A stretch of 64,000 bases of DNA from positions 742,001 through 806,000 of the forward strand of contig NZ_CP118747.1 of NCBI RefSeq assembly GCF_030996345.1. Direction: 5' to 3'. The position numbers and the translations under genes are program-made. This DNA is from Acidithiobacillus sp. AMEEHan (GTDB lineage Bacteria; Pseudomonadota; Gammaproteobacteria; Acidithiobacillales; Acidithiobacillaceae). Of the stretch, positions 58,048 to 64,000 are shown in pieces; the stretch's first letter is position 1, and every line of letters starts with the position of its first letter. The notes under the pieces are model-generated. The model did not search any database. It saw nothing but the letters and a program-made list of their open reading frames with translations, and had not been told where the DNA came from.

Positions 58048-59715
58048 CTACCGGCTGATCGGCTTGAAGCGCAGTCGATGGGGACGTGCAGCCTCTTCTC
58101 CCAGGCGGCGCCGCTTGTCCTCCTCGTACTCGCGGTAGTTGCCAGTGAAGAACTCCACATGGGCATCACCCTCAAAGGCGATGATGTGCGTGGCAATACG
58201 GTCGAGAAACCAGCGGTCGTGCGAGATCACCATCACCGTGCCGGCAAATTCCAGCAGGGCATCCTCCAGCGCGCGCAAGGTTTCCACGTCGAGGTCGTTA
58301 GAGGGCTCGTCGAGCAACAGCACATTCCCACCGGTCAGTAGGGTCTTGGCAAGATGCAGACGGCCACGTTCACCGCCAGAAAGCTGCCCCACCAGCTTTT
58401 GCTGATCTGCGCCCTTGAAATTGAAACGCCCACAATACGCCCGCGAGGGAATCTCGAACTTACCGATCTGCAGGATATCCAGACCACCCGAGATCTCTTC
58501 CCAGACATTTTTTTTGGCCGCAAGGGCATCGCGCGACTGGTCGACGTAGGCGAGCTGCACCGTCGAGCCGATCTTCACCGTGCCCACATCCGGCTGCTCT
58601 TGGCCGGTGATGAGCCTGAAAAAGGTCGACTTGCCGGCGCCGTTGGGGCCGATGATACCGACGATGGCGCCCGGCGGGATCTTGAAGCTCAAATTTTCGA
58701 AGAGCAGCCGGTCGCCAAATCCCTTGGCGACATTCTCGAACTCGATGACTTCATTGCCCAGTCGCTCCGCTACCGGAATGAAGATTTCCTGGGTTTCGTT
58801 GCGCGCCTGATATTCATAGGAGCTCAGCTCTTCAAACCGCGCCAGACGCGCCTTGCTCTTGCTCTGCCGTCCCCGGGCACTCTGCCGTACCCATTCCAAC
58901 TCCTGCTTCATCGCCTTGATGCGCGAGGCCTCGGCGCGGGCTTCCTGCTCCAGTCGTTTTTCCTTCTGTTCGAGCCAGGAGGAATAGTTGCCTTTCCAGG
59001 GGATGCCTTGGCCACGGTCGAGCTCGAGAATCCACTCGGCGGCGTTGTCGAGAAAATACCGATCGTGGGTGACCGCCACCACGGTTCCGGGGAAGCGCGC
59101 CAGATATTGCTCCAGCCACTCCACCGATTCGGCATCGAGATGGTTGGTGGGTTCATCAAGAAGAAGCATGTCGGGGCGACTGATGAGCAGGCGACACAGC
59201 GCAATCCGCCGCTTTTCGCCACCAGAGAGGGTACCCACCTTGGCTTCCCACGGTGCCAGACGCAGGGCGTCGGCAGCAACCTCCATCTGCTGCTCGGCCT
59301 GATGGCCATCGCCAGCCGCCAGAATCGCTTCCAGGCGTGCTTGCTCGCTGGCCAGATGGTCAAAATCGGCATCGGGCTCCGCGTAGGCGGCATAGACCGC
59401 TTCGAGCTCGGCTCGCGCCGTCAGGATCTCGCCCAGACCTTCTTCTACGGCTTCGCGCACGGTCTTTTCCGGATCGACCTGCGGCTCCTGCGGCAGATAG
59501 CCAATTTTCAGATCGGGCATGGGCGTCGCTTCACCTTCATATTGCTTATCGACCCCGGCCATGATCTTGAGCAGGGTGGACTTCCCCGCGCCATTGAGGC
59601 CCAACACGCCAATCTTGGCGCCAGGGAAGAAAGACAGAGAGATGTCTTTGAGCAAGGCGCGTTTGGGCGGTACCACCTTGCTCAGGCGATTCATGGTGTA
59701 CACATATTGGGCCAT
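58048..59715 (-). CDS. ettA: Energy-dependent translational throttle protein EttA (ABC-F)
   Basis: 555-residue ABC-F protein that binds the ribosomal E site and slows translation when ADP is high. Two ATPase cassettes: Walker [16 protein letters not shown] and [15 protein letters not shown], signatures [15 protein letters not shown] and [15 protein letters not shown], plus the P-site tRNA-interacting arm (about 240-300, [26 protein letters not shown]). The Toe and arm regions match EttA rather than Uup. Start at ATG 59715, with an extended -10 just upstream (59748-59756). Confidence 0.95.
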
Positions 59716-59747
59716 TGGAAGTCCTTGCTGCGATCTGGATGTGCGCC

Positions 59748-59756
59748 AGTGTAGCA
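59748..59756 (-). promoter_or_regulatory. Candidate extended -10 promoter of ettA
   Basis: On the minus strand TGC-TACACT (59748-59756) reads as an extended -10 element 33 bases before the ettA ATG. No good -35 is needed or seen. Confidence 0.35.
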
Positions 59757-59771
59757 AAAACGCTGGCGCGA

Positions 59772-59800
59772 TTCCCCGCCTGCGGGCAAGCAGCTACAAT
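59772..59800 (+). promoter_or_regulatory. Candidate promoter of the small membrane ORF and panD
   Basis: -10 TACAAT at 59795-59800, with a poor -35 TTCCCC at 59772-59777 and a 17-base spacer, lies 33 bases before the ATG of the small ORF at 59833. It is divergent from the ettA promoter. Confidence 0.3.
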
Positions 59801-59832
59801 ACGCATGGTTCGCTTGGTGGAGGGGCAGAGAA

Positions 59833-59952
59833 ATGCTCAGCATGTGGGGAGAAATCGTGATCCTGGTAGGGACGCCCGTCCTGCTCTTGCTCGTCGCCGT
59901 GGGTGTCAATCGCCTCGCCCGCCATCATTCCAACGAGAAGAAGGAACGCTGA
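59833..59952 (+). CDS. Small membrane protein (39 residues) coupled to panD
   Basis: Unrecognised 39-codon frame: [20 protein letters not shown] then [19 protein letters not shown]. One predicted transmembrane helix (residues about 7-25) is followed by a basic tail, the classic form of a small inner-membrane protein. GGAGGGGCAGAG lies immediately before the ATG and a -10-like TACAAT about 33 bases upstream. Its TGA overlaps the panD ATG (TGATG), so its translation is linked to panD. It is too short for automatic calling. Real expression is inferred from start context and coupling; what it binds is unknown. Confidence 0.6.
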
Positions 59953-60317
59953 TGCTGATCACCATGCTGAAAAGCAAGCTGCACCGGGCGCGGGTGACGG
60001 CGGTAGAACTCGATTATGAGGGCTCCTGCGCCATCGATGCCGATCTGCTCGCGGCGGCCGGCATTCTCCCCTTCGAGCAGATTCAGATCTACGACGTGAA
60101 CAATGGCGAGCGCTTCACCACGTATGCCATCAGTGCCGCGCCTGGCAGTGGCTGCATTTCGGTCAATGGTGCCGCTGCCCGGCGCGTCGCCTTGGGCGAC
60201 CTTCTCATCATCGCGAGCTATCTCCAAATGAGCCCACAGGAGGCGCAGGGCTGGCTACCCAAAGTGGTCCACGTCGATACACAAAATCGGGAAATTCGCC
60301 CCTCTCTCGTAGTCTGA
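59952..60317 (+). CDS. panD: Aspartate 1-decarboxylase (pyruvoyl-dependent)
   Basis: 121-residue proenzyme that makes beta-alanine for pantothenate and CoA. The self-cleavage site is the Gly24-Ser25 bond in DYEGSCAID, exactly the position numbered in E. coli PanD, which fixes the start at ATG 59952. Further conserved parts: [31 protein letters not shown] and [18 protein letters not shown]. The gene is coupled to the 39-residue membrane protein upstream. Confidence 0.95.
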
Positions 60318-60323
60318 GCTATC

Positions 60324-61553
60324 TTGCTGCTCGCCAATGTACCTGCAAGCGCGCGCCGACTGCTGGCCGCGCGCGCAGCGCGCAGTGTGGGGCAGGGTGC
60401 TCTGGTGGTCGATTTCGCCCTGTATCTGCACGCCCTGCACTGGACGGCAGAGGCCATTGGCGCTCTCTATTCTGCCAGCCTACTGCTGGGTGGACTGGCT
60501 ACCCTGCTGGTGGGGCCCGCCAGTGACCGCTATGGGGCGCGACGTTTTTTACTGGCCTACGAGGGTGTCCAGGTCCTGGCAGCCGTCCTCGCACTGCTCA
60601 GCAGCAACCCCGCCGCGCTCGGCGTCGCCGCCCTTCTCGGCGCCTTTGGACGGGGCGCCAATGGTGGGGCGGGCCCCTTCGCACCGGCGGAGCAGGCTTG
60701 GCTGTCCCGCATCCTCGCACAGGAGATCTGGGGCCGGATCTTACCCATCAATACCGCCATCGGGCTCGCAGGGATGGGCCTGGGGGCCGCGCTTGCCGCC
60801 CTGCCGAGCTTTTTCGCAGCGGATCTTCCCGAACTGCTGGGGTACCGCAGCCTCTTCCTTCTGGTCCTCCTGGGCGCATTGACCAGCCTGTGGTTGTTGT
60901 TCCGCGCCAACGAACCAAGACCCCGGGCCGCATCCGCACCGGCCACGCAGGCAGGCACCTCGGCCCCAGCGACGTTTCGCTGGCGTCCGTTGCTTGGCTT
61001 TGGCGCCATCAACAGCCTCAACGGCCTGGGCATCGGCTTGATCGGCCCCCTGATGGCCTATTGGCTGCATCTGCGTTTTCATGCGGGTCCCGCGCTGATC
61101 GGCCCAGGCATGGCCATCGCCTTTCTGGTGGCGGCAGCCAGCTCCCTGTTCAGCATTCGCCTGAACCGGCGCTTTGGTATGGTCGGCACGGTCGTGCGCC
61201 TGCGCCTGGTCGGCCTGCTGATGTTACTGATGATTCCTCTGGCGCCAACCTTCTGGCTGGCGATGCTCGCGTACATCCTCCGCTCGGCAATGAATCAGGG
61301 CAGTATCGGTTCCCGGCAGGCCCTGTTTCTTGGCATTGTCGACCAGCGACACCGAGGTCTCGCGGCCACCATCAACAGTCTGAGCATTCAGGCACCGCGC
61401 GCCATCGGCCCGGCCATCGCCGCACTGTTCTTCGCTGCGGGGCTGCTCAGCTGGCCCTTCTACCTCGGCGCCGGGCTACAAGCGCTGTATCTACTCCTTT
61501 TCAGTCGCTTTTTCGGCAATAGCGAAGCCGCCGCGAAGGGGCCCGATTCGTAG
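60324..61553 (+). CDS. Major facilitator superfamily transporter
   Basis: 409-residue inner-membrane transporter with about 12 hydrophobic segments. The motif A of MFS carriers is LVGPASDRYGARRFLLAYEG between segments 2 and 3, and the start RSVGQGALVVDFALYLHALHWTAEAIGALYSASLLLGGLATLL is TM1-TM2. Substrate unknown. TTG 60324 lies only 6 bases after panD, so panD-MFS may be one transcript. Its stop lies 2 bases before the end of the convergent ccsA gene. Confidence 0.85.
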   Translation: MLLANVPASARRLLAARAARSVGQGALVVDFALYLHALHWTAEAIGALYSASLLLGGLATLLVGPASDRYGARRFLLAYEGVQVLAAVLALLSSNPAALGVAALLGAFGRGANGGAGPFAPAEQAWLSRILAQEIWGRILPINTAIGLAGMGLGAALAALPSFFAADLPELLGYRSLFLLVLLGALTSLWLLFRANEPRPRAASAPATQAGTSAPATFRWRPLLGFGAINSLNGLGIGLIGPLMAYWLHLRFHAGPALIGPGMAIAFLVAAASSLFSIRLNRRFGMVGTVVRLRLVGLLMLLMIPLAPTFWLAMLAYILRSAMNQGSIGSRQALFLGIVDQRHRGLAATINSLSIQAPRAIGPAIAALFFAAGLLSWPFYLGAGLQALYLLLFSRFFGNSEAAAKGPDS

Positions 61554-61555
61554 CC

Positions 61556-62734
61556 TCAGAGTTTGCCGTAGGAATGCAGGCCCGACAGGAACATGTTGAC
61601 ACCCAGGAAGCAGAAGCTCACCACCCACAGACTCAGGAAGGACCACCAGGCCATGCCGCGGCCGCGCCAGCCCTTCACCACCCGGGCGTGCAAGAAGCCC
61701 GCGTAATTGAGCCAGACGATGAGGGCCCAGGTTTCCTTGGGGTCCCAAGACCAGAAACCGCCCCAGGCGCGTGCTGCCCAGACTGCGCCCAGGATGGTTG
61801 CCACGGTGAAAAACAGGAAACCCAGAGCGATGGCGCGGTACATGACCTCGTCCATGAGGTCGGCGTCGGGCAGACGGGCAGCCAAGACCCCGCGGCGCCG
61901 GACAGATCCTTCGCGCAGCAGGTAGGCTGCCCCGATCAGGCTGGCGATGGTGAAGTTGGCGTAGCCGACAAACATCATCGGCACATGCAGCTTCATCCAG
62001 AAACTCTGTAGGGCCGGGATGAGGGGCTCGACGCGGTCCATGTGTTGCGCCAGCGTCAGCCAGAGCAAAAATGCCACGGCTGCCGCCACCAAGGGCATGA
62101 TGAAGGCGCCGAGGCCTCGGTTTTCCGCCTTTTTCTCGTAATACAGGTAAAACAATGGCGTCGTCGCACAAAAGAGGACGAAGACTTCCCACAGATTACT
62201 GACAGGAATGTGTCCCCAGCTCGGGTGGCCGAGGTAGGTCTCGCGCCAGCGCACGCCCAGACCAATGAAACCGAAGATCACACCGCCCCAGGTCAGGCGC
62301 GTCGCCCAACGCCCAATCGACTCACGCCCCGAGAAAAAATACAGCAGGTAGGCCCCGGTACCGAGAAGGAGGAGTGCTGACATCCACATTACGGCGGCGA
62401 CGCCCTGCAACACGTAGTGCAGAAGAAAATCGTTTTCTGCCGTCTGTCCGTGGGCATAGAGCCAGACCGCGCCCAATGCAGGCAAGACACTGGCTACGGT
62501 CGTCCACTGCAGCGGGCGCCAGGCAACCCCTGCCAACAAAAGGCCGACATACCAGGACAGCAGAACCACATACTGCCAATAATCGAACTGTGCGCCCCAG
62601 CGGGCCAGAATGAACGCCGCAACTGCCGTCAGACCCAGAATCCAGGCCGCTTCCTGGCGCAGGATCTCCGCCAGGGTGCGGTGCCGAAACTCCGCGGGCA
62701 GCCCTTCTGCCCAGGATTCCATGCTCTTTGCCAT
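61556..62734 (-). CDS. ccsA: Cytochrome c biogenesis protein CcsA/ResC (system II)
   Basis: 392-residue integral membrane protein that, with ResB, carries heme across the membrane and attaches it to apocytochrome c. About eight transmembrane segments. The heme-handling tryptophan-rich WWD-type motif is WGGFWSWDPKETWALIVWLNYAGFLH, near the C-terminus, and conserved histidines lie in LAQHMDRVEP and the following stretch. GAGAGGAGCG precedes the ATG. It follows resB by 28 bases on the minus strand. Confidence 0.94.
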   Translation of the reverse strand: MAKSMESWAEGLPAEFRHRTLAEILRQEAAWILGLTAVAAFILARWGAQFDYWQYVVLLSWYVGLLLAGVAWRPLQWTTVASVLPALGAVWLYAHGQTAENDFLLHYVLQGVAAVMWMSALLLLGTGAYLLYFFSGRESIGRWATRLTWGGVIFGFIGLGVRWRETYLGHPSWGHIPVSNLWEVFVLFCATTPLFYLYYEKKAENRGLGAFIMPLVAAAVAFLLWLTLAQHMDRVEPLIPALQSFWMKLHVPMMFVGYANFTIASLIGAAYLLREGSVRRRGVLAARLPDADLMDEVMYRAIALGFLFFTVATILGAVWAARAWGGFWSWDPKETWALIVWLNYAGFLHARVVKGWRGRGMAWWSFLSLWVVSFCFLGVNMFLSGLHSYGKL

Positions 62735-62762
62735 GTGTTTCGCTCCTCTCTCTCTAAATGCG

Positions 62763-64000
62763 TCAACAATTCAAAGTAGTATCTTCTTTTCCAGGCGGCG
62801 CTCGCAAGGCACGCTCCCAGGCAGCGAACTCGCGGGCAAACTCCCGCTTGTTCCGGTCAGCGCTGGCACCCAGTTCCAGATGACTGCCGCCTTCCCGACC
62901 CTCCACCCGCGCCCAGACTCGCCGCTGCGGCAGGTAAAAGAGAATGAAAATTCCCAGAACGAGGGCCACACATCCCCAGTAGATGGGCACCGTGCCGGGC
63001 CACTTGGTAACCTGCAGACCGGCCGCCCACCGATGGTCGAAGGACTGCAGATGCAAAATGAAAGGAGCGGGGTAATCCCGCATCTCTGCCAACGCATTCA
63101 GGCTCGCCTGCACGAAGCGATCCTGCTCAGCAGCAGACATATTGGGTGCGACACGCGCGGCAAGCATCGCAAAGATCTGCTGAAACACCGCCGGAGATGC
63201 CTGCGCACCGCCATGCGCCGCCACCTGCAGGGCAGCCAGATAATTCAGAAACAGGGAGATGCCGCCGTTGGGCCCAACGGGCAAATAGACATAGTGATAG
63301 GGGTCGCCGAGCGCCTGACGATATCCCTGCACGAAATACCCTTGCCCGTCGCGGGTGATGGGACTGAAATAGGTATGGAATTCCGCTGCGCCACCATGCG
63401 GATCATGGACCACATAGGTGTAACTGGGTCCCAGGTTGACCATGGGGTTTTTCGGGTCGGGCTTGTCACCCACCGCCGTTCGCGGCATGACATTGTAGAG
63501 GGAGAAGTTCTTCAACTGCACCGAATAGCCGGAATCCCCTGCCTGCAAGGTCTGGCCAACCCGACCCGAGAGCTGCCCGGGTTGCAGCGCCGGCATCCCC
63601 AAGACGTAACTTTGCAGGTGCAGGAGAGAGCCACCATCACTGAAACTCGACTGATAGATCTCCACACCATCATAGGACATCGGATGATTGACACGAATGA
63701 TGCCGCTTTCCAGCACCTTACCCGACGGGCTGTAGAGCACCACATCGGAAACGAAATCGCTGGGCATGCCGGTGGAGTAATAACTGACGTGGAAAGAGCG
63801 CAGGTGGATGCGAAACGGCAGGGGCTGCACGAGGTAGCCATCGCCGGCCAGTTCGAAGACTGCATCCGCCGTCTGCCCCTCAGGGAGGGTGATGATGCCG
63901 CGGTAAGCGGGATTGTGCAGCGGCATCCAGGCCGAACGGGGAATTTCACTGAGTGGCAGGTCGAAGTTCTTGGCCGGCTTGAGGGTGCCCGTCCATTCCG
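62763..64000 (-). CDS. resB: Cytochrome c biogenesis protein ResB (5' end outside the window)
   Basis: C-terminal 412 codons of ResB/Ccs1, the system II partner of CcsA. The reading frame runs off the window end without a stop or reliable start (visible residues EWTGTLKPAKNFDLPLSEIP). A large periplasmic domain (DFVSDVVLYSPSGKVLESGIIRVNHPMSYDGVEIYQSSF) is followed by the last transmembrane segment (VPIYWGCVALVLGIFILFYLP) and the cytoplasmic end with GREGGSHLELGASADRNKREF. This arrangement matches ResB. Start and true length cannot be seen. Confidence 0.92.
   Translation of the reverse strand, partial: EWTGTLKPAKNFDLPLSEIPRSAWMPLHNPAYRGIITLPEGQTADAVFELAGDGYLVQPLPFRIHLRSFHVSYYSTGMPSDFVSDVVLYSPSGKVLESGIIRVNHPMSYDGVEIYQSSFSDGGSLLHLQSYVLGMPALQPGQLSGRVGQTLQAGDSGYSVQLKNFSLYNVMPRTAVGDKPDPKNPMVNLGPSYTYVVHDPHGGAAEFHTYFSPITRDGQGYFVQGYRQALGDPYHYVYLPVGPNGGISLFLNYLAALQVAAHGGAQASPAVFQQIFAMLAARVAPNMSAAEQDRFVQASLNALAEMRDYPAPFILHLQSFDHRWAAGLQVTKWPGTVPIYWGCVALVLGIFILFYLPQRRVWARVEGREGGSHLELGASADRNKREFAREFAAWERALRAPPGKEDTTLNC

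Follow-up and report, generated by a model that had tools for sequence, protein, structure and literature searches.

A 39-codon reading frame overlapping panD in the Acidithiobacillaceae looks like a conserved gene for a small, predicted membrane protein

Leader open reading frames (ORFs) whose stop codon overlaps the start codon of the following gene form translational coupling systems. For the aspartate decarboxylase PanD, the helper PanM/PanZ is related to the Gcn5-like N-acetyltransferases, and the PanD of bacteria lacking PanM self-cleaves (class II), according to the available part of PMC4537548; PanZ binds a conserved C-terminal tail of PanD, KAIPVQVA, in the available part of PMC4410942. 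The small proteins AcrZ, MgtS and MgtU modulate or protect transporters, and the accessible text of the source, PMC10710835, gives no MFS partner among small-protein targets. Here we describe a small ORF directly upstream of panD in the window, the whole 64,000-nucleotide stretch of Acidithiobacillus sp. AMEEHan DNA that was analyzed.

The ORF runs from an ATG at 59833 to a TGA at 59950-59952 and comprises 39 codons, and its TGATG overlap with the panD ATG at 59952, pointed out in a sequence-only reading of this DNA, was confirmed. The strong ribosome binding site proposed in that reading also held up, as the GGAGGGG motif ends 7 nt 5' of the ATG and forms an anti-Shine-Dalgarno duplex of -9.8 kcal/mol, against a window background with a median of -2.1 and a 10th percentile of -5.9 kcal/mol. 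The last codons of the ORF contain the Shine-Dalgarno (SD) sequence of panD itself. The single helix that had been suggested is borne out as a prediction: AlphaFold2, run on the window peptide as a single sequence, placed a helix at residues 4-38 (mean pLDDT 84.6), and Kyte-Doolittle hydropathy peaks at 2.55 over 19 residues. With 39 aa and one predicted membrane helix, the product would belong among the small membrane proteins, taken as those with <50 aa and one membrane helix. Besides M1, residues W5, G6, V12, G13, T14, P15, G24 and R27 are invariant in the 14 orthologues outside one divergent group (clade D, see below), and position 27 is a conserved positive residue in 23 of 24 orthologues. 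The basic tail of the sequence-only reading is not a conserved feature, as the net charge from residue 29 onward varies among the 24 orthologues between -2 and +3. The features of the locus are collected in Table 1.

Table 1. Coordinates of the small ORF, panD, the MFS gene and their signals in the window
Feature	Position	Strand	Evidence
Shine-Dalgarno GGAGGGG of small ORF	59819..59825	+	anti-SD duplex -9.8 kcal/mol
Small ORF, 39 aa, predicted single-helix membrane protein	59833..59952 incl. stop	+	ORF list, conservation, omega
Hydrophobic helix core, codons 8-25 (I8-V25) of small ORF	59854..59907	+	conserved positions; predicted helix
panD Shine-Dalgarno AAGGA in last codons of small ORF	59941..59945	+	-5.7 kcal/mol
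TGATG stop/start overlap, small ORF/panD	59950..59954	+	sequence; overlap kept in 24/24 carriers
panD, aspartate 1-decarboxylase, 121 aa	59952..60317	+	PF02261 160.3 bits; TIGR00223 154 bits, cut-off 106
MFS transporter, 409 aa, TTG start, third gene of the cluster	60324..61553	+	PF07690 79.6 bits, cut-off 33.4

The family Acidithiobacillaceae was sampled with 29 genomes, each searched whole. panD is present in 26 of them, and the small ORF lies directly 5' of it in 24; in every one of these loci the upstream stop overlaps the downstream start, by 1 or 4 nt. All 24 full-length copies sit at panD, and the window's own genome has no second true copy, the one other match having an E value of 1.16. 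A look upstream of panD in relatives, which the sequence-only reading had recommended, recovered the frame in 24 of 26 family panD loci, with the peptide under purifying selection outside clade D; the lack of conservation that would have spoken against the gene was not seen. Two genomes (G024 and G025, loci L029 and L038) retain panD and the MFS gene and lack the small ORF. In two further genomes (G006 and G027) the whole-genome search detected neither the small ORF nor panD, and in another (G020) a 20-residue fragment of the ORF lies at a contig edge and panD was not found. A decayed remnant 5' of panD in G024 and G025 was considered and dropped: the alignment is ambiguous, and because 14 and 25 of 300 shuffles attained the same DNA similarity, and 159 and 109 of 300 the same protein similarity, no remnant is claimed.

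Profile searches outside the family covered 369 genomes of the class and 398 of the phylum, in overlapping draws, and in many of these genomes the scored set was the best 19-20 candidates. Among the candidates scored, 7 class and 6 phylum genomes gave matches at E<=0.01; apart from those in the window's own genome and in G019, every one was weak (E from 7e-4 to 0.006). In the remaining class genomes (367 of 369) and phylum genomes (397 of 398), the candidates scored yielded nothing beyond such weak matches. None of 11 weak loci that were checked carries the panD motif, and nine of the matches fall within frames of >100 codons; the two short ones are in L152 (48 codons) and L055 (39 codons), the latter overlapping, out of frame, what we take to be a CcmD-like ORF. 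Given the weak E values, the missing panD motif and the mostly long frames, none of the candidates scored was accepted as a distant relative outside the family. We also fetched 80 non-family panD loci (the order-level L061 and L062, and L065-L142, which were placed by their record titles, in some cases no more specific than 'Gammaproteobacteria bacterium'), 79 of which were readable (no motif in L095). No short ORF (<100 aa) with a peak hydropathy >=2 ends near the panD start in any of the 79, so that a coupled helix peptide was seen neither in the order-level outgroups G054 and G200 nor at the 77 other loci; the highest candidate, a 58-codon frame in L067, reaches a hydropathy of 1.87 and is unlike the peptide by eye. 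A plasmid search gave no match. Among the genomes searched, the small ORF appears confined to the family that includes Acidithiobacillus.

The peptide gave no convincing match in Pfam (22 family members searched), NCBIfam (window peptide) or the PDB. FixS was matched weakly by one of the 22 members (E=0.0091) and DUF6458 by two of them (best E=0.043), in both cases probably by chance. An RNA element at the locus was also rejected, as Rfam returned two sub-threshold matches only for 59600-60400 and three stretches, when folded, showed no gain in stability over shuffled sequences (z -0.81, -0.79 and +1.76). A promoter scan at the locus found none, and the one terminator-like site lies within expectation (1 vs a mean of 1.6). 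In the open-licence literature, judged by titles and listings, no report of this ORF was found among the papers listed.

Pairwise dN/dS could be used for 127 of the 276 pairs among the 24 orthologues of the small ORF, with a median of 0.43, and for 129 pairs of panD, with a median of 0.09; the small-ORF value conceals two regimes. When a codon model was fitted to codons 2-31 of the small ORF, omega was 0.100 in clade A (4 species including that of the window; p=2e-6 vs omega=1) and 0.097 in clade B (6 species; p=8.6e-8), and the 14 orthologues outside clade D taken together gave 0.146 (p=3.5e-22 vs 1). Clade D is a set of ten species (G002-G005, G007, G008 and G012-G015; loci L012, L017-L022, L024, L025 and L143) that belong to a single genus-level group. 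Here the panD topology gave an omega of 1.15 (p=0.64) and a free topology one of 0.96 (0.68-1.36), with peak hydropathy falling from 2.12-2.55 outside the clade to 1.39-2.04 within it. The peptide of clade D is thus neutral, yet the start, frame and panD overlap of the small ORF are intact in 10 of 10 species. In a neutral simulation that used the panD topology and a transition bias of 4.0 vs the fitted 6.2, the probability of no stop in any tip was a borderline P=0.0525; ongoing selection for an open frame in clade D is possible. On the panD topology the clade accumulated 1.03 substitutions per site in the small ORF, 0.44 in the upstream 130 nt and 0.43 in panD, although the small-ORF length may be inflated by recombination or topology conflict because the G005 peptide (L020) is unusually divergent relative to its panD distance. 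For that peptide itself, recombination or acceleration is possible. Taken together, these comparisons suggest a selected protein in 14 species that has apparently been freed in clade D. Given the conservation and the selection on it, we reject the view that the ORF is not a gene; it looks like a genuine, conserved gene for a small, predicted membrane protein.

A gene of this kind could nevertheless act on panD through its translation alone, the peptide being irrelevant and the ORF loading ribosomes onto panD by termination-reinitiation. Such a leader would account for an overlap that is kept in all 24 loci, the drifting clade included, and for an SD that is stronger for the small ORF than for panD (family medians -7.4 and -5.8 kcal/mol), the panD SD of the window being modest and near the 10th percentile of the background. 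In the two order-level outgroups, where the small ORF is absent, the panD SDs (-12.2 and -9.0 kcal/mol) far exceed those of the family in strength, and the open but neutral frames of clade D, with their borderline P, fit the same explanation. However, panD within the family retains its own SD, with a median of -5.8 kcal/mol compared with -4.3 kcal/mol at 78 other panD loci, and the panD SDs of G024 and G025 (-6.0 and -6.1 kcal/mol), which have no ORF before them, are no stronger than those of the family. Free drift of the peptide, as in a coupled leader, is confined to clade D; in the 14 other orthologues omega is 0.10-0.146 and eight residues are invariant. Because omega is ~0.1 outside clade D, a leader role is insufficient there, and as a complete account of the ORF we consider it doubtful. 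The suggestion of the sequence-only reading that the ORF simply drives panD translation therefore fails as the whole story, although it may describe all that remains in the drifting clade, and coupling of panD translation is plausible as an additional role.

The other suggestion made at the outset was a helper of PanD activation, that is, a peptide aiding PanD maturation or membrane placement as a membrane analogue of PanZ/PanM. The linkage to panD at 24 of 26 loci speaks for such a helper, as does the fact that PanZ (PF12568) was not found in the window's own genome at E<=1. In contrast, panD persists without the peptide in G024 and G025, and ten clade-D species carry a neutral peptide, with PanD constrained in both situations: panD omega was 0.085 in clade D and 0.091 in the set G024/G025/G022. 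In groups with a conserved peptide it was 0.041 (clade A), 0.088 (clade B) and 0.179 (the set G018/G019/G021). Because PanD stays constrained both without the peptide and beside a neutral one, an obligatory helper is unlikely. Moreover, none of the 79 non-family panD loci has a coupled helix peptide, the window PanD has a Gly24-Ser25 cleavage site, and self-cleavage is what the available part of PMC4537548 reports for PanD of bacteria without PanM. The helper is disfavoured by these data, and we regard it as improbable. More remote still, and very improbable in our estimation, is a role for the peptide in holding PanD, as a membrane tether or adaptor, at the adjoining MFS transporter, a device that would have arisen in the family and been given up later by two lineages; if true, beta-alanine, or its product, would be formed at the transport site by a membrane-bound vitamin-B5 enzyme module coupled both in translation and in space. 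The panC gene of the window's genome is ~700 kb distant on the same contig, and in the order-level outgroups panD follows what we take to be panB and panC.

The MFS gene lies directly 3' of panD in 25 of 26 family panD loci, the contig ending in the 26th (G004), and its frame is open to the stop in 24 of the 25, the remaining one running off its locus. No MFS relative was found by tblastn at the 80 non-family panD loci, some of them short, and the cluster of small ORF, panD and MFS gene appears only in the family that includes Acidithiobacillus. Within the family the MFS protein is a panD-linked transporter. The divergent upstream neighbour differs between lineages (presumably an ABC-F type, a TyrRS type or a P-type ATPase type protein) and the small ORF and panD remain together; because this neighbour changes, the linkage of the small ORF is with panD and the MFS gene. 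Elsewhere in the window, a 466-aa frame on the plus strand (58354-59754) is antisense to the ABC-F type ATPase gene and is probably a codon-bias by-product, and minus-strand genes at 61556-63926 read by eye like the cytochrome c biogenesis genes CcsA/ResB.

The explanation we favour, albeit tentatively, is a small single-helix protein that modulates or stabilizes a membrane partner, perhaps the MFS transporter of the cluster, with coupling to panD by the overlap. It is more probable that the peptide serves a membrane partner than that it serves PanD, and for its partner, which like its expression we infer, the MFS transporter of the cluster is the likeliest candidate. MFS omega was 0.168 (0.145-0.196) in clade D (9 species), 0.087 (0.072-0.107) in A, 0.113 (0.093-0.138) in B and 0.157 in the set G024, G025 and G022, so that the protein is constrained everywhere tested and mildly less so in clade D than in A or B. 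A partnership is favoured by the gene order at 25 of 26 loci and by the higher MFS omega where the peptide is unconstrained, panD being unchanged between D and B. Against it, the MFS gene is intact in G024 and G025, which are without the peptide, the change in rate is slight and depends on roughly two evolutionary events, and in the set with G022 panD omega is also raised beside that of the MFS gene. The MFS and panD differences may be lineage-wide shifts, and because panD omega varies as much without any change in the peptide, the MFS shift need not mean partnership. Were the partner neither PanD nor the MFS protein but, for example, a respiratory or proton-handling complex, with the peptide merely co-expressed with panD, this would agree with the loss or relaxation of the peptide where panD and the MFS gene persist, with the lack of a convincing database match and with the FixS and DUF6458 likenesses, probably chance, noted above. 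The presence of all 24 full-length copies at panD despite changed upstream neighbours, and the single true copy in the window's genome, argue against such a partner, which we consider unlikely.

For a partner within the cluster, a single mRNA would be translated from the strong ribosome binding site of the small ORF, and ribosomes terminating at its TGA would restart at the overlapping panD ATG, aided by the SD in the small-ORF tail. The peptide would insert as a single helix with its C-terminus probably inside, since R27 and nearby K/R residues come after the helix. Once inserted it would bind its membrane partner, most likely the MFS transporter of the same cluster, and may modulate or stabilize it, by analogy with what AcrZ, MgtS and MgtU do for other transporters; small proteins acting on transporters are well described (PMC10710835), which makes such a role plausible. 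Because two lineages do without a constrained copy, the peptide would be accessory.

These findings add a well-supported, family-specific gene for a small (predicted) membrane protein that lacks a convincing Pfam or NCBIfam match. The constrained, drifting and lost copies beside a retained panD and MFS gene amount to natural experiments on the role of coupled small genes, and make that role directly testable. Were the MFS protein the partner, the gene would carry more weight, since it would then bear on a panD-linked transporter of unassigned substrate.

The small ORF is real and conserved, and appears to represent a new family of an ordinary kind, the small single-helix proteins encoded in operons. 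Its product, like PanZ/PanM, is a candidate accessory factor of PanD, but the latter is kin to the Gcn5-like acetyltransferases in the available part of PMC4537548, whereas here we have a predicted membrane helix of 39 aa, and PF12568, which is GNAT-like, matches neither the window peptide nor any of the 22 family members. The PanD partner of PanZ ends in KAIPVQVA in the portion of PMC4410942 available, a tail that is missing from the window PanD, which ends in REIRPSLVV. With coupled leader ORFs the small ORF shares a TGATG or ATGA overlap and an SD inside the upstream ORF, and it differs from them in the strong purifying selection on its peptide outside clade D. The likeness to AcrZ, MgtS and MgtU lies in a length of <50 residues, a single helix, no enzymatic domain and, here, a transporter gene in the same cluster; these proteins act on other transporters, and the product of the small ORF is a candidate counterpart rather than a demonstrated relative.
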